This document shows positions 386 through 35,055 of a DNA stretch of 64,000 nucleotides, piece after piece. Numbering within the stretch: the first letter of the stretch is position 1; each line of letters opens with the position of its first letter. The position numbers and the translations under genes are program-made. The notes under the pieces were generated by a model. That model had not been told where the DNA came from. It saw only the letters and a list, made by a program, of their open reading frames with translations, and did no database searches. Source of the stretch: Paenibacillus alginolyticus DSM 5050 = NBRC 15375 (GTDB lineage: Bacteria; Bacillota; Bacilli; Paenibacillales; NBRC-103111); the NCBI RefSeq assembly GCF_000422905.1, contig NZ_AUGY01000043.1:1-64000 (forward strand), written 5' to 3'.

Positions 386-937
386 ATGAATATTGGCTCC
401 ACCATACGGACAATCCGTAAACGTAAAAACATTACCATCGCTCAAATCTGCGAAGAAACCGGCTTATCTCAAGGCTTCATGAGCCAGGTCGAAACCAATA
501 AAACCTCGCCGTCTATCGCAACGTTGGAAAGTATCGCTAAGGCTTTGAAGGTGCCCTTGGCTTACTTGCTGCTGCAACAAGAGGAACGCATGAATATTGT
601 CCGCAAAGAAGAACGAAGGATCACGAAAAGCGGGATTGAACATATTAAAGTGGAGCACCTAAGCTCTACAAAGAACGTACGGATGATGCTCGTCGAGTTC
701 CCCCCCGGTGGTTCGACTGGTGAGGTTCCACACGCCCACGAGGGTGAAGAAGTTCATTTTGTCATAAAAGGGAGAATCTTCGCTGAGCAGGGAGAAGATC
801 AGGCTGAATTCGGAGAGGGCGACTCCTTCAGTTGGAATGCCTGCACGCCCCATTTAGTGAGAAATATAGGCGAGGAAACGGCAATTGTTCTCATATCCAT
901 TTACACTGAAAGCGATCATTCAAAGGAATTCCTATAA
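386..937 (+). CDS. XRE-family transcriptional regulator with C-terminal cupin domain
   Basis: This 183-residue cytoplasmic DNA-binding protein has an N-terminal Cro/CI-type helix-turn-helix (about residues 7-62, with TIAQICEETGLSQGFMSQVE and a typical SPSIATLESIAKAL helix) and a C-terminal cupin barrel (about 105-178, HAHEGEEVHFVIKG). Regulators of this build sense a small molecule in the cupin and control neighbouring metabolic or stress genes. It sits convergent to the TOMM cluster and shares a terminator hairpin with it. It is a plausible but unproven regulator of the peptide genes. ATG at 386 is preceded by GGGGTG. Confidence 0.85.
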   Translation: MNIGSTIRTIRKRKNITIAQICEETGLSQGFMSQVETNKTSPSIATLESIAKALKVPLAYLLLQQEERMNIVRKEERRITKSGIEHIKVEHLSSTKNVRMMLVEFPPGGSTGEVPHAHEGEEVHFVIKGRIFAEQGEDQAEFGEGDSFSWNACTPHLVRNIGEETAIVLISIYTESDHSKEFL

Positions 938-945
938 ATGCAAAA

Positions 946-987
946 TAGCAAGAACCCACAACCTGATGCGGCTGTGGGTTCTGCTAT
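946..987. terminator. bidirectional terminator between convergent genes
   Basis: AGAACCCACA at 951-960 pairs perfectly with TGTGGGTTCT at 973-982, extended by AGC/GCT with one bulge. It lies between the convergent 3' ends of the XRE/cupin gene and the SagB-like gene. Confidence 0.75.
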
Positions 988-1013
988 AACTTTCGCTTTC
1001 ACTCAAGCCTTTT

Positions 1014-2594
1014 CTAGCCGTGCAATTCTCCTACCAATCGGGGGCAAGGACGATAAGGTCCAACCGGGATTTGGATCAGGCTGGTTATTCCTTCTGAAGT
1101 CATCTTGTAGATCTCATCACACAATCTGGCATCAAATCCGAGGAGCGGATGTCCCCCTATCCCGATGGCAGATGCCGCCAACAGTAAACGCTGCACGAGC
1201 ATCCCCGCTTCCATCTGTTGAATGCGATATCCCCTAAACCCCAGGGCTGTTGCGAGATGATCCTTATCCCCTGCAACATGAAAGCATAGCGGAACTTGGA
1301 AGAGGTTCACGTTGTCGGAAGGCATTCCCTGCTGCAGCTTAAGCCTATGATCTCCAAGACGTACGCGCCGTAGCGTATGAGCAGCGCTGTCATAATGGTA
1401 AGCACCGTCCGGAATGCCATCAACGTTATAGAAGCAGCCATATAGTGAGACGCGTGAAACGGGGGCCTCCTGGGCGCCATCCAAATCATTCCGATACCTG
1501 AAGGAAGCCGTTGCCTCCTGGAGCAGCGAGGCCAGCTGCTCTTGGCTTACCTTGCCCGTAACAAAATCACCGTCCGGCGAAAACCGCTCTCGGCTTACTG
1601 ACGCTAGATCATACAATAACCGTTTCACGCGGGGCAGAGCCACCACTTGATCCTCGCAATGAACGATCTTCTCTTCCCCCATTCGCAGTAACGGCCGAAA
1701 CGATTCCAATAGGGATGCTTCATTCATTTTGATTAGCATCGGAAACTCCTTGACCCTCCGAGATCGGACGTAGTGATCATGATGAACCATTGTCAGCTCC
1801 CGGCATAATTCGCTGGCGGTACTTTCCCCCTCTCCCTCATTTCTATTGGCCAACCAAGAGGTCGCAGGCTTCACCGATAGCGGAATCACCGCATACACAC
1901 TCTCCTCTTGTTCCGATAATCCGAGGAGATGATTCACGGCTCGATCTAGGAACTGGAAATACACGCCCGACGCAAAGTCGAACCGTTTCGCCACTTCCAA
2001 GAGCTGCCCGATCAACGCACCCGCATCCAGTCCTTGCAGGCGGTAGGAAAAGTTATTGTATTTAAAGAAGTTTTTCCAAAACAGGGTCGATACAAAGACA
2101 GCACCAAAGCAAGCCGACACGTCACAGCGATTGCCAAGAACCCGAGCTAAATAGGAATCGAAGTTGCCTTCGCGCAGCAACACCAAACGGTGGTGCGCCA
2201 CATCATAATGATATACCCCAGCAGGCAAATCCTCTAGCTTCAGATACACGTATACTTCATTCGGATATAACGCTCCCCCGGAGGGAACAAACCGCCGGTA
2301 TAACTGCATCAGACCCATATTTTGTATCATAGAGTTTGAAGCAGGAACGGACTGTGACAATTGAGTGAGACCGAATATGTACCAGAGAAAATGACCCATA
2401 TGGCGAAGGTCGGGTTTCACCGACGCATCACCGCCTACGAGCGTCAGCGGTACTTCCGGAGATAACGGAACCACAGGCAAACCGCGGTATAGCTTATACG
2501 CAAGCGGTCCGTCTTCCCAATCCACCACCGCGTCCTGCGGTTTGGTCTTGTCAATGTCATAATGCAGATTGTGCAGAAATGCCTCCAGACTCAT
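1014..2594 (-). CDS. SagB-type FMN dehydrogenase with two nitroreductase-like halves (TOMM cluster)
   Basis: The product is a 526-residue flavin-dependent dehydrogenase that would oxidise thiazolines and oxazolines of the modified precursor to thiazoles and oxazoles. Both halves carry a SagB/nitroreductase-like signature: GGALYPNEVYVYL...GVYHYD in the first and RVSLYGCFYNVDG...GAYHYD in the second. The protein is therefore a tandem fusion of about twice the single-domain SagB length, as known for Bacillus heterocycloanthracin-type clusters. The start at 2594 (MSLEAFLHNL) is preferred because the upstream in-frame codons encode the GGAGGGAG ribosome-binding site itself. It is the last gene of the minus-strand cluster. 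Confidence 0.85.
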   Translation of the reverse strand: MSLEAFLHNLHYDIDKTKPQDAVVDWEDGPLAYKLYRGLPVVPLSPEVPLTLVGGDASVKPDLRHMGHFLWYIFGLTQLSQSVPASNSMIQNMGLMQLYRRFVPSGGALYPNEVYVYLKLEDLPAGVYHYDVAHHRLVLLREGNFDSYLARVLGNRCDVSACFGAVFVSTLFWKNFFKYNNFSYRLQGLDAGALIGQLLEVAKRFDFASGVYFQFLDRAVNHLLGLSEQEESVYAVIPLSVKPATSWLANRNEGEGESTASELCRELTMVHHDHYVRSRRVKEFPMLIKMNEASLLESFRPLLRMGEEKIVHCEDQVVALPRVKRLLYDLASVSRERFSPDGDFVTGKVSQEQLASLLQEATASFRYRNDLDGAQEAPVSRVSLYGCFYNVDGIPDGAYHYDSAAHTLRRVRLGDHRLKLQQGMPSDNVNLFQVPLCFHVAGDKDHLATALGFRGYRIQQMEAGMLVQRLLLAASAIGIGGHPLLGFDARLCDEIYKMTSEGITSLIQIPVGPYRPCPRLVGELHG

Positions 2595-2653
2595 GCTTCT
2601 CCCTCCTGATATGAACAAGGATGCAGTTTCAATAATTAATACATAATTAAACC

Positions 2654-4597
2654 CTATGGAAACGGATGCGGGTATGGATTGAGATTCTCTAGCCGGAGCG
2701 GCTTCTTCGCATACCCGAGTTCCACCGGTACCCTCAATACCCGCTCCAACCCGGTCACGCGGGTAAAGTGATGCCCGAATGTCATCGGCAGCATCCCCGG
2801 GATCAGCACTTTCACGCAGTGCAGTCCATTTCGACTAATTTCCGGCGCTGTCACATCCACCACGATCACATCGAGATTCAATCGGCGGAACGCCTTAAGA
2901 ATATCCTTCAGATCGTCCGTTAAATCAGCATGTCTTGCCTCCTGTTTGAATTCCTCTTCAAACTTTCGCAACGGGCGATTTTCATCCAACAGAAATTGCA
3001 GGCGCTCCTGCGCTTGCGGCAAACCGTATAGCAGTGAATGATCCTCCATCTGCTGCACCAGGGAGGAATCGTGAAACATCCGAACATACTCCTCCTGATT
3101 TGCCTCAAATTTCTTATCAAGATTCAGTACCATGCCAGCCAACTCGTGAACCGCGCCTTTCACCGCCCGTACAGGATCAGGATGAGCTCCGGCCGCACAG
3201 ATGAGATTCACTCCTGTTTGCTTCCTGTTTTTCGCTATCCCCCATACGCTTGGAATCCCGTGCTCCATCGTTGAGTTAAAGAAATGCACATCAAATCCCG
3301 CCACGGCTCGCAAACGATCGATCATTAAACGCAATTCTTGGTCGTTAATGGAATAAGGGTCAAGGCGCGGGAGAGACAGCTGCGCGTACCAAGCCATCAG
3401 AAACGAATCTCGCTCCACCACTTCCAATATGCCGTAAAAAATAGCCTCCTCCAAACTTCCTCCTAACGCGCAGCCGTTGGAAGACTCGGATACGAAACCA
3501 TGCCCGCAGCCCATGCTGTAATAGGCGAGCTGTTCCGGAACCAGAATCGGTCGCTCTTGTAAAAACGAATAGCCCCATACCCAATTGATTGGCTGGTCAG
3601 GATCGAACGGTGTGAACGGAAACCTCGGCTGAGCATACTGTTCCTTCGTGTGCATCCCTACCTTGACGGGGTCGAGCGCTTGAGCTCCCAGATTCCGGAA
3701 GCTGCCATGGACTACCGTCCGTTTGCCTCGGGGGGCCAGACCGCAGTACCGCTCCAATCCCTCCAAAATGGCGGTCAACTCGCTCACCGCATAGGAATTA
3801 GTCCGACCTGCCGTTCCCACGTCCTCACTGAATAGCGGCAGATTCACACTCACATCGGCAAATGGCGAATCAAGGTCAACCATTTTTCCATTCAAAAAGC
3901 CGGTCCGGTAATCCAGATAGTCTTTGGTCAGGAATTTACTCAGATCATCCATCGTGCGGGAGCGGTAACTGTCTGAGCTGATCTTCGGACTTGGTTGCAG
4001 TGAAATTTGGGCTGCTATCGATGAATCGTCAGGCAGTCGACTACAAACCGGACACAGCGGGTCAGGGAGAAAGAAGTGCAGTGTGCTCTCCAGCGATTTC
4101 AGGTTGATCAAAAACACATTCCCTTCCGAATGCACCCGTTTGCCTTGTAACATCCTCTGTGTCTCCACCACCAGAAGGTGAGCTGCCTGTAAAAGTCCCG
4201 TACGCGACGCCCAAGCATCACTCGGCATTCTCTCGTACGACACCAGCCTCATCTGCAGCTCCCTCATCTCCCTGCGCTCGCGTCCCGCCATAAGACGCCG
4301 GGTGTCTGCACACTGAGAGCACCCCCGTGTACCCGGACGAACCAGAGGCCCGATCACGCCCTCGCCGAATGAAACGAAGCCGCGCAGCCAAGGGATGCCG
4401 GCTGGCTGCAGCAGCTCTTCTGCTTGTCGATGAACGGTAGGTTGCCAAGCATCATGCAGCACCAATGCTAAATTCACCGCTTTCGGTACTCCGGCCTCGA
4501 AATCGATCTGACGTACAACCTCGAATTGAGCTGAAAGTTCTTCGTAAACGCAGTCTGCCAACACCCCATCTCCAACAATCATTACGGTAGCGCTCAC
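2654..4597 (-). CDS. TOMM cyclodehydratase: E1-like leader-binding domain fused to YcaO
   Basis: This 647-residue enzyme converts Cys (and Ser/Thr) of a peptide core to azolines using ATP. The N-terminal part (about 1-190) resembles the E1/ThiF-like C protein, with CxxC pairs at C93/C96 and C182/C185 that would bind zinc. The YcaO domain follows from about residue 205, with SELTAILEGLERYCG (272-286) and SSNGCALGGSLEEAIF (372-387), the ATP-binding region. The C-terminus is PYPHPFP, the proline-rich end typical of azoline-forming YcaO enzymes. The start is GTG at 4597 with AGGAGG upstream; its GTGA overlaps the previous stop, indicating translational coupling to the maturation gene. Confidence 0.9.
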   Translation of the reverse strand: MSATVMIVGDGVLADCVYEELSAQFEVVRQIDFEAGVPKAVNLALVLHDAWQPTVHRQAEELLQPAGIPWLRGFVSFGEGVIGPLVRPGTRGCSQCADTRRLMAGRERREMRELQMRLVSYERMPSDAWASRTGLLQAAHLLVVETQRMLQGKRVHSEGNVFLINLKSLESTLHFFLPDPLCPVCSRLPDDSSIAAQISLQPSPKISSDSYRSRTMDDLSKFLTKDYLDYRTGFLNGKMVDLDSPFADVSVNLPLFSEDVGTAGRTNSYAVSELTAILEGLERYCGLAPRGKRTVVHGSFRNLGAQALDPVKVGMHTKEQYAQPRFPFTPFDPDQPINWVWGYSFLQERPILVPEQLAYYSMGCGHGFVSESSNGCALGGSLEEAIFYGILEVVERDSFLMAWYAQLSLPRLDPYSINDQELRLMIDRLRAVAGFDVHFFNSTMEHGIPSVWGIAKNRKQTGVNLICAAGAHPDPVRAVKGAVHELAGMVLNLDKKFEANQEEYVRMFHDSSLVQQMEDHSLLYGLPQAQERLQFLLDENRPLRKFEEEFKQEARHADLTDDLKDILKAFRRLNLDVIVVDVTAPEISRNGLHCVKVLIPGMLPMTFGHHFTRVTGLERVLRVPVELGYAKKPLRLENLNPYPHPFP

Positions 4598-6555
4598 CGG
4601 GATCCCTCCTCTCGCAATAACACGCCAAACACCCCTGCCATTTCTTCTTTCAAAAACGGTTCTACTGCCAGATCGAACACCAAGAGACGCTTACGGTTCC
4701 GTTCCAAGACCTGCAAGGCGGACTGTAAAACCTCCGATTTTGCCGTCATTTCACATGAAGGGATCTTAAAACTTAGCGGCAATTGTTCTGCCAGACGCAC
4801 GGACGAAACCCCCAATACTTGCGATGTGAGGTTAGCCGGTTGGTTTTGTACCTCCAACAGAGCCTGTTGCAAAGCATCCCGCAACGCCAGGGTCACATTC
4901 AAGCCTACACCGCCATACCAGCGATCACTCGTACCGACCCACATCACAGGGAAACCGGAAACTTCCTCTCCCAAGCCAATCATTGGTGCTCCCGCCATCG
5001 TCGTCAAAGCCTGTAAATAAAACTGGCAGTGTTTATCTTCTATCGCAGACAACTGCACTCGAATGACAGAGGGTAACTGATATGCCACTTGCTTACACAG
5101 TACCTCGGCCAAACACTTTTGCAACGCTCGGCCAACGCCTTCCGCAACCGTTTCTCCCGCTCCGACGCCGATAAATTCCTGCGGCTCTATCCTGCTGCCC
5201 TCTGATTCCTTATAGGATGGAAGCGTCGAAATGAGCAGTCCAGCCATTCGCGACACATACGCTTCAATCCCGGCCAGCCCTGCTTCCCGCCTAGCTCCCT
5301 CATGCGTTAAATCGTTACAAACAATGTCGGGCAGTAGCCTAGCCGGCCCTTCAGATAACGGATCGACTGCCTGAACGCGACACTGAGCGAGAGGTAGCTG
5401 CTTTAAGTCCCCTTCCTCCCAAATATGAAAAATCCCTGATTCTGCCGATGTCAACCGACTGAAATAAGGAAGCAATCCGTTCTCACTTTTGCTTGATCTT
5501 CGTTCGAGCTGCTGATCGAAATCGTGAATCCATTCCGCCCCGATACGTCCGGTCACAAGCGGATGGGGCTTGAACCAATGCCATTTTCCTTCTAAAGTTT
5601 CCAGATTAAGCTGGAAGAATTGATTACCTTGCCCCGAATCGTTCGCTCCCGTAATCTTTTTAAATAATTCAAATACAATCACATTCGCTAACATCGCTCC
5701 GGCTGTAGAAGAAAAGGTGTGCAGCTGAGGGTCCTTACAAATCGCGGATTCATGTACGCTGCGCCATGCTGACTCCCAGCATCCTTCAAAGTCTGGATGC
5801 ACTAACGGACCCGCTAGACCTACCTGTTGCAGAATTACCGCGGAAAGAAACATCTTCTTCTCCTCCCTGCAAACCGCATGAAGAACCCGCAGTTCCTCGA
5901 TATCACCCTCCCGTGACACGAACAAAATCGAATGAAACGGCCTCACAGTCTCCCGCCAACTACTAACCCGCTTCTTCTGCAGGGTAACCTCCTCTATTGC
6001 TACCTCGGGATCCGTTTTACGAGCATGTGCTGCCAGTTCATGCATCCGCCCCCGATCTGTCGGCTCTGAGCCCGAGACCAGCACATGAACCTTGGGCAAT
6101 CCGGATGCAAGCAGCGCAGAAACTACCGAGATCAATAATGGGCCAGAGCCGACCGCCAATACTTTGGCCTGACGATAAGACTGAAACCGGTACGCACCCG
6201 AATTACCGAAATTGTCCAGGAATTCAATTTGAGAAGCATACTTTTTGAGAACCACTTCGGGCAATCGATGTGGAGTGTCTTGGCTCACATCCCTTACAAA
6301 TCCATTATGATACAACATTTCTGCAATCCTATTTACCTGGTTCCGGTGTTGCTCCGGTAATCCGTCTGTCAAATCCTCCAACCTATGCTCCCCGTTGAAT
6401 ATCGGCATCAGTTTTTCAATCCACTGATCGATCAGTTCTCCTTCCATGCGGAAAGAGCTTACATTGTTTCGAAAATACACACTACCGTTTGGATTAGGGA
6501 GAAAAAACGTATCCCTTTTCACCTTTAGTCGCATCGAAGGTTTCAAATTTGTCAT
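4594..6555 (-). CDS. putative thiazole-containing bacteriocin maturation protein (TIGR03693-like)
   Basis: This 653-residue protein matches in order and style the large partner found in Bacillus heterocycloanthracin-type clusters. It starts with a region resembling a peptide-recognition fold (about 1-90, LKVKRDTFFLPNPNGSVYFR), then a Rossmann-like ThiF/E1-related segment (about 125-220, AKVLAVGSGPLLISVVSALL) without obvious adenylating residues. The C-terminal half has weak YcaO-like character. The likely role is to recognise the leader peptide and assist the cyclodehydratase; this is inferred from the family. ATG at 6555 has GGGAGGAGG upstream. The stop overlaps the YcaO start by four bases. 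Confidence 0.8.
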   Translation of the reverse strand: MTNLKPSMRLKVKRDTFFLPNPNGSVYFRNNVSSFRMEGELIDQWIEKLMPIFNGEHRLEDLTDGLPEQHRNQVNRIAEMLYHNGFVRDVSQDTPHRLPEVVLKKYASQIEFLDNFGNSGAYRFQSYRQAKVLAVGSGPLLISVVSALLASGLPKVHVLVSGSEPTDRGRMHELAAHARKTDPEVAIEEVTLQKKRVSSWRETVRPFHSILFVSREGDIEELRVLHAVCREEKKMFLSAVILQQVGLAGPLVHPDFEGCWESAWRSVHESAICKDPQLHTFSSTAGAMLANVIVFELFKKITGANDSGQGNQFFQLNLETLEGKWHWFKPHPLVTGRIGAEWIHDFDQQLERRSSKSENGLLPYFSRLTSAESGIFHIWEEGDLKQLPLAQCRVQAVDPLSEGPARLLPDIVCNDLTHEGARREAGLAGIEAYVSRMAGLLISTLPSYKESEGSRIEPQEFIGVGAGETVAEGVGRALQKCLAEVLCKQVAYQLPSVIRVQLSAIEDKHCQFYLQALTTMAGAPMIGLGEEVSGFPVMWVGTSDRWYGGVGLNVTLALRDALQQALLEVQNQPANLTSQVLGVSSVRLAEQLPLSFKIPSCEMTAKSEVLQSALQVLERNRKRLLVFDLAVEPFLKEEMAGVFGVLLREEGSR

Positions 6556-6684
6556 TATAATCCTCCTCCCGTTCTATCCCAACTCTTCACAAATAATCTT
6601 ATGTACAGCTATTTGTCCCTCATGTCTTATTCTTAAGGAAAGTCCCTGCAGCTAATGTAGTGAAGCGGCCCTTAAAATAGGTAT

Positions 6685-6712
6685 GAAAAAGCCCCTGGGC
6701 TACAGGGGCTTT
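6685..6712 (-). terminator. terminator/attenuator between precursor and modification genes
   Basis: AAAGCCCCTG at 6688-6697 pairs with CAGGGGCTTT at 6703-6712 around a five-base loop, and on the minus strand the stem is followed by a T-run. It sits between the precursor gene and the maturation gene, so it would let the precursor be made in excess over the enzymes. Confidence 0.8.
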
Positions 6713-6793
6713 CCTCTTCATTAAGTAGCCGCTATTTCCGTCTGGAAGCTAGAAACAACGGGCGTAGACGCTGCCTTATCAGCAAAAACCACC

Positions 6794-7057
6794 TCATTGT
6801 CCTCCACGGTGGCAGTTGTGACAATTGTGGCAGTTAAAACAGTTGTGGCATCGGTGGCAATTAAAACAATTGGAGCAATTGAAGCAATTGGAGCAATTGG
6901 AGCAATTGAAGCAATTGAAGCAATTCAAGTTGACGCAACTGAAACAAACGAAGCATAAACGAGCATCTTGCTGGCCTTGAGCGTTCCAAGGTGTCGCCTC
7001 GCTCGCCTTGAACTCGGAAACATTTAACTTCTGTAGATCATTTTTGAAATCATTCAT
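6794..7057 (-). CDS. TOMM precursor peptide, heterocycloanthracin/sonorensin-like, with (x-Asn-Cys)n core
   Basis: An 87-residue peptide with a leader (about 1-33, MNDFKNDLQKLNVSEFKASE...) and a cysteine-rich core. Cysteines lie at 35, 38, 41 and then at every third residue from 46 to 82, 16 in all. Between them the pairs are mostly Phe-Asn, Ser-Asn or His-Asn, and the end is HRGGQ. Leader and repeated Cys core fit the heterocycloanthracin/sonorensin precursor family, whose Cys residues become thiazoles. The core is encoded by near-identical 9-base units. ATG at 7057 follows CGGAGG. It is immediately upstream of the modification genes. The mature product and target are unknown. Confidence 0.88.
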   Translation of the reverse strand: MNDFKNDLQKLNVSEFKASEATPWNAQGQQDARLCFVCFSCVNLNCFNCFNCSNCSNCFNCSNCFNCHRCHNCFNCHNCHNCHRGGQ

Positions 7058-7079
7058 TTTACAAACCTCCGATTAATAA

Positions 7080-7108
7080 ATTGTTATGCTGGCAGCATAC
7101 TCTGTCAC
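7080..7108 (-). promoter_or_regulatory. candidate promoter with palindromic operator for the precursor gene
   Basis: On the minus strand GTGACA (7103-7108) and AACAAT (7080-7085) are 17 bases apart and could serve as -35 and -10 boxes. The spacer contains the perfect palindrome TATGCTG-C-CAGCATA (7085-7099). A dyad in that position is typical of a repressor operator. The -10 box is weak, so the assignment is tentative. Confidence 0.4.
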
Positions 7109-7357
7109 TGGTAAGAAGAACAGAACCAAGATAATCAGGAAATTCCCCTGCGAAATCCGCCAATTTATTCGAGTACCCCATGACAACATATGAACTCAGT
7201 TCCGCTCTTGTTACTGATTTAAATGCCTATATTTTATTGCTCTTCCTAAAACTTTATAAGGCGGCCTTTATTGGCAAACTGCTTCTCTTCGCAGCTGAAA
7301 CAGTTACTTACGGCACGGTTAATTGCATCTCCCTGAATAGCAAAAAGGAGAGTTCCC

Positions 7358-7849
7358 ATGAATTCCGTTTATATAACAAGTATCGGGAAGTTCTTGCCGG
7401 GTACGCCCATCGATAACGAGGAAATGGAGGAATACCTCGGAAGAATAGGCGGAAAAAGCTCGAAATCTATGCGGCACATTCTTGATCAAAACAAAATTCG
7501 ATATCGTCATTACGCCATAGATAAAGATCAAAAAAGCCTTTATTCTAATGCAGAAATGGCTACTAACGCGATTCGCGATGCGCTTGAGCGGAATCACGAC
7601 GATTTATTTAACCAAGTAGACTTTCTAGCTGTTGGCACGACCCAGGGCGACCTGTTGGTTCCCGGTTTTGCCAGTATGGTTCATGCCGAAACTGGCCTGC
7701 CCGTCATGGAAATTGCGACACATCATGGCGTCTGCGACAGCGGTATGCAAGCGATCAAGAATGCTTTCCTGCAGGTACAATCTGGCGAGAAGAAAACCGC
7801 CATCTCCTGTGGCAGCGGCCGAGCAATATATTGGGAAGAATCCCAATAA
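7358..7849 (+). pseudogene. truncated 3-oxoacyl-ACP synthase III-like gene (5' half)
   Basis: The first about 155 residues match the N-terminal half of a ketoacyl-ACP synthase III-type condensing enzyme: VYITSIGKFLPG at the start, FLAVGTTQGDLLVPG, and the nucleophile region THHGVCDSG with Cys126. The usual family length is 320-360 residues; here homology ends near 7820 and the frame stops at 7849, so the catalytic His and Asn half is missing. The sequence runs directly into kinase-coding DNA in another frame, showing a deletion junction. ATG at 7358 has AAAAAGGAG upstream, so a truncated protein may still be made, but it cannot be an active synthase. Confidence 0.8.
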
Positions 7850-8387
7850 GGCTGTCGTCCTGCTTGGAGAATTAAGGACTACGATCCGTTCTACGGTTGA
7901 TGATATTCGAACCATGGTTCACGACTTGCGTCCACCGACACTTGATGAGTTTGGCTTGATAGGCTCAATTAAAGCACGTATTGATGACACCATCAAAACA
8001 TCGGAACAGGTTTCCGCATCCCTGCGTACCACCCCTTTGCGCGCAAAATTACATATTCCTCAAGATCTTCCCGAATTGCCGGCAGCGGTGGAAGTGGCAG
8101 CCTATCGTATCGTAACAGAATCGCTCGTAAACATTGTAAAACATGCGAAAGCCACAATTTGTGACGTGTATTTGCAGATGAATTCGGCAAATGAATTGCA
8201 AATAGAAGTCATAGATAATGGGATTGGCATTCCCGTCCACATCAAGCCGTCAGGCAAGGGTGGAATCGGTTTAACATCCATCCGCGAGCGAGCGCAGGAG
8301 CTAGGCGGTCAATGTGTATTTGAACGATTGGAATCAGGCGGTACACGTGTAAAGGCACTGCTGCCATTCTCACATAGGGAGGAATAG
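7818..8387 (+). pseudogene. 3' fragment of a NarL-type sensor histidine kinase
   Basis: From about 7818 the frame encodes AEQYIGKNPNKAVVLLGELR, then the end of the dimerisation helices (TIRSTVDDIRTMVHDLRPP) and a complete HATPase domain (N box TESLVNIVKHAKA, G1 VIDNGIGIP, G2 GKGGIGLTSIRERA). The sensor part and the phospho-accepting His helix are gone; upstream sequence in this frame is antisense to function and belongs to the KAS III fragment. The kinase cannot autophosphorylate as drawn. It is followed three bases later by its likely former partner response regulator. Confidence 0.8.
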
Positions 8388-8389
8388 GT

Positions 8390-9049
8390 ATGAAGATCCT
8401 ATTAGCAGACGACCATCCATTATTTCGCAGCGGCGTAAGAAATCTAATTCAAACAACGGATGATTTGCAGGTAATCGGGGAGGCGGCTACAGGAGAAGAA
8501 GCCGTTGAGATGGCTGTATCCCTGCTTCCGGATGTCATCGTTATGGATGTTCGGATGCCCGGTATCAACGGAATTGAAGCTACAAGAATCATCAGGGAGA
8601 AGCTCCCCGATATGAAAATATTAATTGTAACTATGCTGAAGAACGACAAATCCGTCTTTACCGCTATGCAGATGGGGGCAAGAGGCTATGTCCTAAAGGA
8701 CGCAGGAGAAATGGAGCTGCTGCATTCCATTCGCATGGTTGAAAGAGGCGGAGCCGTCTTTAGTTCGGACATCGCGGCACGCATGATGCATTATTTTATG
8801 ATGCCGCAACAATCACAACCTGCCAACCCCGCTCTCTCCGAACTGACCGGTCGTGAAAGCGAAATATTGGAGCTTATATCCGATGGATATACGAACTTGC
8901 AAATTGCCTCACGCCTTCAATTGAGTGTGAAAACTGTCGCCAATCATGTTACAAATATCTTAAACAAACTCCAAGTTGCAGATCGCCATGAAGCCAAAAA
9001 GCTCTTGAGCAAATCCCGGGATATGTTTGGTTCGGAAGAGAGTGAGTGA
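8390..9049 (+). CDS. NarL/LuxR-family response regulator
   Basis: A 219-residue transcription factor with an intact receiver domain (1-120: acidic pocket D7/D8, phospho-acceptor D53 in VIVMDVRMPG, conserved Lys in YVLKD) and a C-terminal LuxR-type helix-turn-helix (about 148-212, LTGRESEILELISDGYTNLQIA). It follows the kinase fragment at three bases with GGAGGAAT upstream. Because the partner kinase has lost its phosphorylation site, this regulator is probably orphaned or fed by another donor. Its targets cannot be read from the window. Confidence 0.9.
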   Translation: MKILLADDHPLFRSGVRNLIQTTDDLQVIGEAATGEEAVEMAVSLLPDVIVMDVRMPGINGIEATRIIREKLPDMKILIVTMLKNDKSVFTAMQMGARGYVLKDAGEMELLHSIRMVERGGAVFSSDIAARMMHYFMMPQQSQPANPALSELTGRESEILELISDGYTNLQIASRLQLSVKTVANHVTNILNKLQVADRHEAKKLLSKSRDMFGSEESE

Positions 9050-9175
9050 GTATTAATTGAGTCATTAGTCGAAGCTGAGTGAGGGCAATATGGGGGGCTC
9101 TTTAGTTGTTGTGGGGATGTTCGCGCTTTTTTAGCATTGAATTCGAAGCTTGGCTTGCGGAGCAAGCAAACAGAT

Positions 9176-9211
9176 AAAGCCTCTATTCCGCCACTCGGAA
9201 TAGGGGCTTAT
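9176..9211 (+). terminator. hairpin downstream of the response regulator
   Basis: AGCCTCTATTCC (about 9178-9189) pairs with GGAATAGGGGCT (9197-9208) around a seven-base loop. The following T-run is poor, so efficiency is uncertain. The 120 bases between the response regulator stop and this hairpin hold no gene I can support. Confidence 0.5.
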
Positions 9212-9222
9212 ATTTAACATTG

Positions 9223-9351
9223 TCAAACTGAAGATTTTTCCTGAGAGTTCAACATCCTGTACCCGATTATCCTCGCATCCGTATTGGCAGGATCCCAGCG
9301 TAGATGACACAGACCGCAATGGCTGGATTCCTCCACTTGCACTTTGGCTGA
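9223..9351 (-). pseudogene. possible remnant of a fibronectin type III-like repeat
   Basis: One minus-strand frame reads KVQVEESSHCGLCHLRWDPA followed by NTDARIIGYRMLN and a stop at 9223. The W-D-P-A ... G-Y-R spacing resembles the core of a fibronectin type III domain. It has no start, no ribosome-binding site and only about 40 residues, so it is at best a decayed tail of a larger surface protein gene. Confidence 0.25.
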
Positions 9352-9353
9352 CT

Positions 9354-9815
9354 TTAATATTGTCCTTTAATTACAAAAAACGAGCCCCGAATTGTTCCGG
9401 CTAGCTTAGACTTCTGCCTAGCAAACTTAAACTTCGCTTCTAACTCCTTTGGTACCTCCATCCCCTCAGAAAGCTTAAAGCCAACGGCCCGCTTCTTAGG
9501 GTCATCCACCGTATACATGACATTGAGCGCAAGACCATCCTCATAAAAGACGTAGGTAAATAGGATATTTTCCACTTGAAAACGCGACGTTTCTAAAGGT
9601 TTGGCCGCAAACGCAATACCTCGTTCTTCTAAAATGCGGTTCACATAAGCAAGACTCTCCTGACTTTCGCTAGCTGGTATAACCGTAAATTCATGCTTGT
9701 ATTTGTTCATAAAGTAACGGGCTTCATTAGCACGTAACCCAGCAAGCGCTTCTGCTACAGGTGAAGACTCTAAACCTACCATAGACACATTTTTAAAATC
9801 AACGATATACGACAT
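9354..9815 (-). CDS. conserved-looking hypothetical protein, 153 residues
   Basis: I do not recognise the family. The protein starts MSYIVDFKNVSMVGLES and ends with a basic segment (KFKFARQKSKLAGTIRGSFF) and IKGQY. It has no signal peptide or membrane segment and looks soluble with mixed alpha/beta content. ATG at 9815 is chosen over the ATG six bases upstream because GAGGGATGGAA gives it a ribosome-binding site at correct spacing. It stands alone, between a terminator and a 75-base AT-rich gap, and upstream lies the terminator of the SDR gene. Function unknown. Confidence 0.7.
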   Translation of the reverse strand: MSYIVDFKNVSMVGLESSPVAEALAGLRANEARYFMNKYKHEFTVIPASESQESLAYVNRILEERGIAFAAKPLETSRFQVENILFTYVFYEDGLALNVMYTVDDPKKRAVGFKLSEGMEVPKELEAKFKFARQKSKLAGTIRGSFFVIKGQY

Positions 9816-10017
9816 TTCCATCCCTCATTTTCTCTCATTATTTCTTATAAACAAAAATTTTCTTCTTTATCTACCAAATATTATACCAAAAATGATTCAA
9901 TATAAACGTTCACGTTTTGGGTATGATAAACCACGTTGTTTCCCGCCAATAAAATTTGCCTCATTTATGATAAGGCTCTCCTTATACGCTATAACGGCTA
10001 AATTTCTTTCACAATTT

Positions 10018-10048
10018 AAAAAAGGGATATCGAGAAAATCGATATCCC
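10018..10048 (-). terminator. intrinsic terminator of the SDR gene
   Basis: GGGATATCGA at 10024-10033 pairs perfectly with TCGATATCCC at 10039-10048 around GAAAA; on the minus strand the stem is followed by six T. It ends the transcript of the SDR gene at 10158-10877. Confidence 0.85.
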
Positions 10049-10157
10049 AGAATTGACTCTTTATTAAGTTGACTTTGGTGCAGCGGCCGACAACATCCAA
10101 ATGTGCTCAACACCTCAACACATTTTTATTGTAAATCTAAGTATAGCTTGCCCTCTT

Positions 10158-10877
10158 TTATTGCGGATTTGTTGTCAAAATTCCAGCAGTCTTTATAAAG
10201 ACTCGTTGTGGTAATTGCCGAGTCGCTACAATAAGTTCAGCCACATCTTCAGGCTGCATCATCCTGTCTTCGTCACCTATTTTCAGACCAACATTCGCCG
10301 CCAATTCCGTATTAACCGTGCTTGGGGTCAAAGCAGTTACGCGAATATTGGATTTCCTCACTTCATGCATGAGAGATTCTGTGAATCCCAACACTGCGAA
10401 TTTGGAAGCACAATAGGCAGAACCGTTGGCAAAACCGCGCTCCCCGGCAGTAGAGGAAATATTGACTATACTTCCGCTATTCTGCTTCAGCATGTACGGC
10501 AATGCCGCCCGGGTAACATAGTACGTCCCCATGAGGTTCGTTTGAATGATGCGCTCCCAAGCCTCCGTTTCCATCTCAAGTACGGTCCCAAACTTCGCTA
10601 CACCCGCATTATTGATGAGAATATCAATGGTTCCAAGCTTTTCTGCCAGCGTATTTATTGCTAGTTCAGCTTGTTCTTTATTGGAAATATCGGCGGTAAC
10701 CTGAAACACCTTGACTCCATACGACTTCCCTAAAAAATTCTGAAGGCTCTCCAAATCGGCAGCGCTTCTAGCCATGATACCAAGATGTACGCCTTCTTTC
10801 GCAAGCGCAATGGCAGCGGCTTTCCCGATTCCCTTCCCTGCTCCAGTAATAATGGCCGTCTTATTGTGTAATCCCAT
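10158..10877 (-). CDS. short-chain dehydrogenase/reductase, FabG-like (3-ketoacyl reductase type)
   Basis: A 239-residue NAD(P)-dependent oxidoreductase of the classical SDR fold. It has the nucleotide-binding TGAGKGIG near the N-terminus, NNAG, and the catalytic Ser-Tyr-Lys (SIVNISSTAGERG...YCASK). Closest in style to YoxD/FabG-like reductases of Bacillales; the substrate is not deducible. Start at 10877 (MGLHNKTAII) is chosen because AGGAGG lies at 10885-10890 and the residues of any longer frame are encoded by that site. It is monocistronic with its own terminator. Confidence 0.88.
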   Translation of the reverse strand: MGLHNKTAIITGAGKGIGKAAAIALAKEGVHLGIMARSAADLESLQNFLGKSYGVKVFQVTADISNKEQAELAINTLAEKLGTIDILINNAGVAKFGTVLEMETEAWERIIQTNLMGTYYVTRAALPYMLKQNSGSIVNISSTAGERGFANGSAYCASKFAVLGFTESLMHEVRKSNIRVTALTPSTVNTELAANVGLKIGDEDRMMQPEDVAELIVATRQLPQRVFIKTAGILTTNPQ

Positions 10878-10959
10878 TTGAATTCCTCCTATGCTTATTT
10901 GCACATGGCTCGATTGTTCCCCATGTATTTCCTCGTCTTCCGAGTCACTTCAGTGTGAC

Positions 10960-34647: not shown

Positions 34648-34867
34648 ATCGCTACAAAAGTGGGCACCTAAGTTGGTGCCTAGAAGTGCTTCTAGCCAGC
34701 CAATCTATCATTTCGAAGCACTATCAAACAATCAAACTCTCTTAAACTCTCTTACGCACACTACAAACCATCTCTTCCGACATCTAATAAAGGGATCAAA
34801 ACCCCTGAATAACCTCACAATAGATAAGAGCCCCTCCAAGGGACTCTTACCTTACCATGTTCTTTCT

Positions 34868-35055
34868 CAGTAACGTTGTTTCTCTTTCTCCATAGCGCTG
34901 TTGATTCTTGCTCTGGAAAGTTGCTTCTCTCTCTCCGTAACGCTATTGTCTCTTGCTCTGGAAAGTTGCTTCACTTTCTCCGTAACGTTGCTCTCTGTTC
35001 TGGAACGTTGTTTCTCTTGCTCTGGATCGCTATTTCTCCTTGCTCCAGAACGCCA
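34868..35055. repeat. imperfect tandem repeat of about 22 bases, roughly nine units
   Basis: Units alternate around TCTCTTGCTCTGGAACGTTG and TCTCTCTCTCCGTAACGCTA, giving a pyrimidine-rich strand just downstream of rplI. The open frame through it encodes only low-complexity sequence (SCSGKLLLSLRN repeats) with no ribosome-binding site, so I treat it as a repeat and not a gene. Confidence 0.6.

Follow-up and report, generated by a model that had tools for sequence, protein, structure and literature searches.

The heterocycloanthracin precursor family (TIGR03601) was described in 2009 in a paper whose title names "repeated Cys-Xaa-Xaa motifs" (Haft 2009, PMC2674419). The founder precursor has 13 Cys separated by ten intervals of 3 and two of 4, and strains differ by tripeptide insertions or deletions in the core (PMC2674419). 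It is rich in Cys-Gly-Gly and its gene lies 1.27 Mb from its enzymes, whereas a Bacillus licheniformis member has the precursor beside the enzyme genes (PMC2674419). According to the available part of Cox et al. 2015 (PMC4603692), an F protein, a cyclodehydratase and a dehydrogenase are present in all heterocycloanthracin clusters, and the F-dependent cyclodehydratases have a shortened N-terminal part. In the available part of a micrococcin preprint (PMC10634744), the dehydrogenase oxidizes azolines, and its interactions could not be characterized. The activity of sonorensin from Bacillus sonorensis MT93 is published, but the text of the 2015 sonorensin paper does not contain the words thiazole, mass or cysteine, so the end product of the family is not well defined in the literature examined.

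The window analyzed here is a 64,000-nucleotide stretch of Paenibacillus alginolyticus DSM 5050 = NBRC 15375 (contig NZ_AUGY01000043.1, positions 1 to 64,000). The precursor, F, fused cyclodehydratase and dehydrogenase genes form a single row on the minus strand, and all four products score above the curated cut-offs. The features of the locus are as follows.

1014 to 2618, minus strand: SagB-type dehydrogenase (TIGR03605, 208.3 bits, cut-off 78.4, match in two stretches).
2654 to 4597, minus strand: fused E1-like/YcaO cyclodehydratase (TIGR03604, 423.8 bits, and TIGR03882, 149.2 bits, both above cut-off).
4594 to 6555, minus strand: ocin-ThiF-like F protein with an RRE-like N terminus (TIGR03693, 767.3 bits, cut-off 561.9).
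6688 to 6712, minus strand: G+C-rich hairpin in the gap between the precursor and F genes (the scan lists its stem on the plus strand only).
6794 to 7057, minus strand: heterocycloanthracin-family precursor peptide (translation of 87 aa with 16 Cys; TIGR03601, 40.9 bits, cut-off 35, profile positions 1 to 87 of 88 aligned).
6956 to 7057, minus strand: leader, approximately residues 1 to 34 (the first 33 to 34 residues are 97% identical in locus L068, Paenibacillus sp. Soil787).
6797 to 6955, minus strand: Cys-repeat core, residues 35 to 87 (16 Cys, 13 in one run at interval 3).
6806 to 6856, minus strand: second, His-rich core part (residues 68 to 84), with the HRC unit at C70 as its first unit.
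7066 to 7070, minus strand: GGAGG, the likely ribosome-binding site, read directly 8 nt upstream of the precursor start codon.

The window therefore very probably holds an intact heterocycloanthracin/sonorensin-type gene set whose product would be a linear thiazole peptide bacteriocin. It shares the F protein, fused cyclodehydratase and SagB dehydrogenase with the TIGR03601 family, and leader homology, a Cys-Xaa-Xaa core and tripeptide length changes with the founding description (Haft 2009, PMC2674419). The window core differs from the Cys-Gly-Gly founder in being mostly x-Asn-Cys, and its precursor gene adjoins the enzyme genes, as in B. licheniformis. Sonorensin is named in the NCBIfam family to which the window precursor belongs.

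Translation of the open reading frame confirmed the coordinates, strand and 87-residue length given in the original prediction, and its assignment to the heterocycloanthracin/sonorensin family of TOMM precursors holds, as the peptide passes the TIGR03601 cut-off. Pfam gave no match to the precursor or to the F protein. The Cys are at positions 35, 38, 41, 46, 49, 52, 55, 58, 61, 64, 67, 70, 73, 76, 79 and 82. The 13 Cys at strict three-residue spacing predicted from C46 to C82 are present, but C35, C38 and C41 also belong to the array and bring it to 16. Asn precedes 12 of the 13 Cys in this run. The predicted x-Asn-Cys units with Phe, Ser or His at x need two corrections: the C46 unit is Leu-Asn-Cys and the C70 unit is His-Arg-Cys. 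Near-identical 9-base units were also predicted, and Tandem Repeats Finder returns a repeat of period 9 at 6857-6929 (8.1 copies, 87% matches). The Cys run is not a chance product because none of 100,000 shuffles of residues 33 to 84 reached 13 Cys at interval 3, the longest run being 10. The boundary between leader and core probably falls just before C35. A spurious low-complexity translation was considered and rejected on the leader homology, the GGAGG site and the dN/dS values. The possibility of another precursor in the rest of the host genome was likewise rejected; the genome has a single TIGR03601 match and a single array of the xNC pattern searched. A separate tandem array at window positions 34860-35053 has units of 22 and 45 nt with 63 to 84% matches.

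Residues 12 to 90 of the F protein match the RRE protein PbtF (8t19, E 8e-7). The cyclodehydratase, the only TIGR03604 match in the host genome, overlaps the F gene by 4 nt at its start, and its YcaO part aligns to LynD (4v1t, E 1.1e-34), TruD and MusD. The N-terminal part of the window enzyme is the shorter one because its YcaO match begins at residue 264, compared to 410 in LynD, 417 in TruD and 419 in MusD, in line with the shortening described for F-dependent heterocycloanthracin enzymes (PMC4603692); a further N-terminal stretch aligned to LynD was not significant (i-Evalue 2.2). For the dehydrogenase, the better match is a putative nitroreductase (3eo7) and the weaker one McbC (6gos, E 4.7e-5). 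It is extremely improbable that these genes are a thiopeptide cluster instead of a heterocycloanthracin cluster: the precursor passes TIGR03601, and the ten window proteins scanned (386 to 10904) include no lantibiotic-type dehydratase. Such dehydratases, acting on Ser and Thr, are a defining feature of thiopeptides. What speaks for a thiopeptide is that dependence on an ocin-ThiF-like F protein and the YcaO group are common to both classes in the available part of Cox et al. (PMC4603692). No transporter, protease or immunity gene was recognized among the same ten proteins (386 to 10904).

In the region 7358-8387 (plus strand), upstream of the precursor, a frame matches the StlD/DarB-type beta-ketosynthase family, and the match ends after about 153 to 159 residues. 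A second frame (7632-8387) overlaps it, encodes a histidine-kinase C terminus and is adjoined by a response regulator at 8390-9049. The L068 counterpart of the ketosynthase part, 97% identical over 153 residues, sits inside a 622-residue ORF whose family match continues to the end. The window region thus looks like the scar of a deletion or rearrangement, or an assembly join.

Gene order is the same in eight of the nine relatives examined (L068 to L072, L074, L076 and L078). The exception is L077, which has no leader match, a cyclodehydratase match on the other strand and a dehydrogenase match that is a fragment. Compared with L068, dN/dS is 0.25 for F, 0.14 for the cyclodehydratase, 0.25 for the dehydrogenase and 0.07 for the leader (33 codons). 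Across L069 to L072, L074, L076 and L078, the values for the three enzymes range from 0.14 to 0.25, and those for the short leader are noisier at 0.11 to 0.57. Judging by these coding sequences, purifying selection acts on the enzyme genes. What has been observed directly is the identity of the genes, their open frames and their conservation.

The family was surveyed in 30 genomes of the genus. TIGR03601 matched in 14 (12 over cut-off), TIGR03693 in 22 (18 over cut-off) and both in 13; genome G022 has TIGR03601 only, as a weak match with an internal stop. An Asn-Cys-rich precursor lies near an F gene in 11 of the 30, the window's genome included. The family model did not detect one of these, L028 in G028, which was recognized on inspection of the ORFs. 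Neither approach gave a precursor in eight of the 22 genomes with an F match; seven of them have an F match starting at a profile position of at least 87, and the eighth, G017, has a full-length F protein. In an order-wide sample, TIGR03601 matched in 85 of 392 genomes and exceeded the cut-off in 63.

An F protein was found at 39 named loci, 29 of which have a Cys-repeat ORF. Among the ten that do not, by the criteria used, are a short F fragment (L106) and the Paenibacillus F homologues L080, L081, L082, L083, L100, L103, L073, L075 and L077. The RRE-like part is missing in L080, L081, L082, L083, L100 and L103 because their F match starts at residues 87 to 131. A second cyclodehydratase, 62 to 64% identical, faces away from F in eight of the nine precursor-less Paenibacillus loci (not L103), and L073, L077 and L082 keep only cyclodehydratase or dehydrogenase remnants behind F. 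These loci suggest a different or decaying pathway, and they are what would favor reading the window itself as a decaying or silent gene set with a neutral low-complexity tract for an array. That reading is very unlikely here: all four window frames are uninterrupted, their dN/dS against L068 does not exceed about 0.25, the start codon is preceded by GGAGG, and the Cys periodicity is retained while the x residues vary.

The original prediction held that the Cys spacing was unusual for the family and the array unusually long. We compared 55 distinct family precursors, the window's included, drawn from 106 loci by keeping ORFs whose start fits the leader pattern and dropping one non-family ORF. 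Precursors such as L087, L093 and L104 are outside this set, and strong family members are favored in it, as the genome searches return loci best first. Some frames keep upstream residues, which leaves the array Cys counts unaffected except where an upstream Cys is included (for example in L008 and L014, whose upstream Cys are absent from the set of 55). The 55 precursors have 800 Cys-Cys intervals, of which 523 are 3 and 162 are 4. In nineteen precursors, again counting the window's, 13 or more successive Cys are spaced at interval 3, and four have the longest run, 17. Three-residue Cys spacing is normal for the heterocycloanthracin/sonorensin family, and it was already the described hallmark (PMC2674419). 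The prediction is thus right as an observation, with small corrections, and right on the family, and its claim of novelty is wrong.

Sixteen of the 55 precursors are Asn-Cys-rich, a group defined as 8 or more Asn-Cys by a criterion set after the sequences had been seen. The prediction had named an xNC core in many described family members as a result that would count against it; such cores are found in the genomes of relatives but not among the described members examined. A literature search on the family names gave no title describing an Asn-Cys core among the matches listed. Other spacings occur. L004, L009, L012 and L063 have Cys mostly at interval 4 (CAGV/CGGF-like units) with His toward the end. 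Of these, L004, L009 and L012 are from the window's own genus and have a Gly/Ala-rich core. In Brevibacillus fluminis, a precursor-like ORF beside an F gene (L102:7550-7813) has an alternating Ser-Cys array of 22 Cys mostly at interval 2, compared to interval 3 as the commonest in the precursor set.

The Asn-Cys precursors of Paenibacillus sp. Soil787, P. phytorum, P. aceris, P. planticolens, P. ferrarius and Paenibacillus sp. Root444D2 and V4I3 share the leader, an Asn-Cys core, a His-rich end and the gene order with the window, and differ from it in unit number and order. The window has four His units, a number exceeded in Soil787, P. phytorum, Root444D2 and V4I3. L007 has 18 Cys against 17 in both L003 and L005, and the aligned sequences are set apart by a single 9-nt gap within the His part. 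Gain or loss of whole units would produce such a difference, in keeping with the tripeptide indels that Haft described. The predicted change of copy number stands as a 9-nt step between relatives, for which slippage may be the mechanism.

The core divides into a Phe/Ser/Thr part and a His part. Among the 16 Asn-Cys-rich precursors, His occupies x in 4 of 128 units of the first half and in 82 of 138 units of the second. All 11 genus members have an Arg or Gln unit at, or one to two units before, the first His unit: HRC or HQC opens the His part in seven, and FRC stands one or two units earlier in four. The window's HRC at C70 is this border Arg unit. Units with Thr, Ser or Gly in place of Asn are present too, for example in L003, L005, L007, L008, L010, L013 and L015. 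Outside the genus the border rule fails, with an Arg unit near the start in L017 and L066, none in L056 and a mixed arrangement in L091; L078, with five Arg units and no His unit, is also outside the rule. This two-part pattern with its Arg or Gln border unit did not appear in the literature examined (PMC2674419, PMC4603692, PMC10634744 and related papers), and may still be published.

It is a speculative and unlikely idea that the core is a two-part code conserved in the genus, with a Phe/Ser/Thr-Asn-thiazole part, a His-Asn-thiazole part and the Arg/Gln unit at or just ahead of their border. The His part would then form an extended imidazole-thiazole ligand array, and the product would be a metal-loaded or pH-switched antibiotic instead of a plain poly-thiazole. 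A related alternative keeps the same biosynthesis and has the mature peptide mainly bind metal, as a metallophore or metal-dependent antibiotic. The second-half bias toward His and the 3 to 5 His units among the last five in all 11 genus members fit it, since His at most third residues beside thiazoles gives a ligand-rich C-terminal part. We consider it unlikely: L078 has the same gene order and an F protein 75% identical and yet no His unit, L091 has one in its last five, no metal-uptake gene was recognized among the ten window proteins scanned, and a literature search for a link between YcaO, His and copper gave nothing relevant, judged by title.

All eight relatives examined have a hairpin in the gap between the precursor and F genes; it shares the window's GCCCCT stem and is followed by a T-rich tail. 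The window copy was located by the pattern of this shared stem; another, weaker hairpin is also present in the window. On the minus strand, the tail of the shared-stem hairpin (TTCATACC) does not satisfy the T rule of the scan, although it has five T counted from the stem end. The promoter scan gave 6 hits compared to 5.9 in shuffles and the terminator scan 13 compared to 7.2, so that single hits mean little. The hairpin is possibly a partial terminator that would favor the precursor over the enzyme transcript.

In the bacteriocin pathway that we propose, the precursor and enzymes would be expressed from one transcription unit. Published work on heterocycloanthracin and related enzymes predicts that the F protein would bind the leader and that azolines would be formed from Cys. 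The SagB-type dehydrogenase would then oxidize the azolines to thiazoles, presumably at every Cys. Each Asn-Cys would yield a thiazole with a loss of about 20 Da, provided that every Cys is cyclized. A protease would be expected to remove the leader and a transporter to export the peptide. The mature product would be linear, would carry up to 16 thiazoles and may kill other bacteria.

The question of novelty is closed, since the family was already known for three-residue Cys spacing. Paenibacillus holds a set of naturally varying precursors beside their enzymes, in which the poorly described heterocycloanthracin product could be worked out. The unit changes among them amount to a natural test of the influence of repeat number and side-chain pattern on processing.
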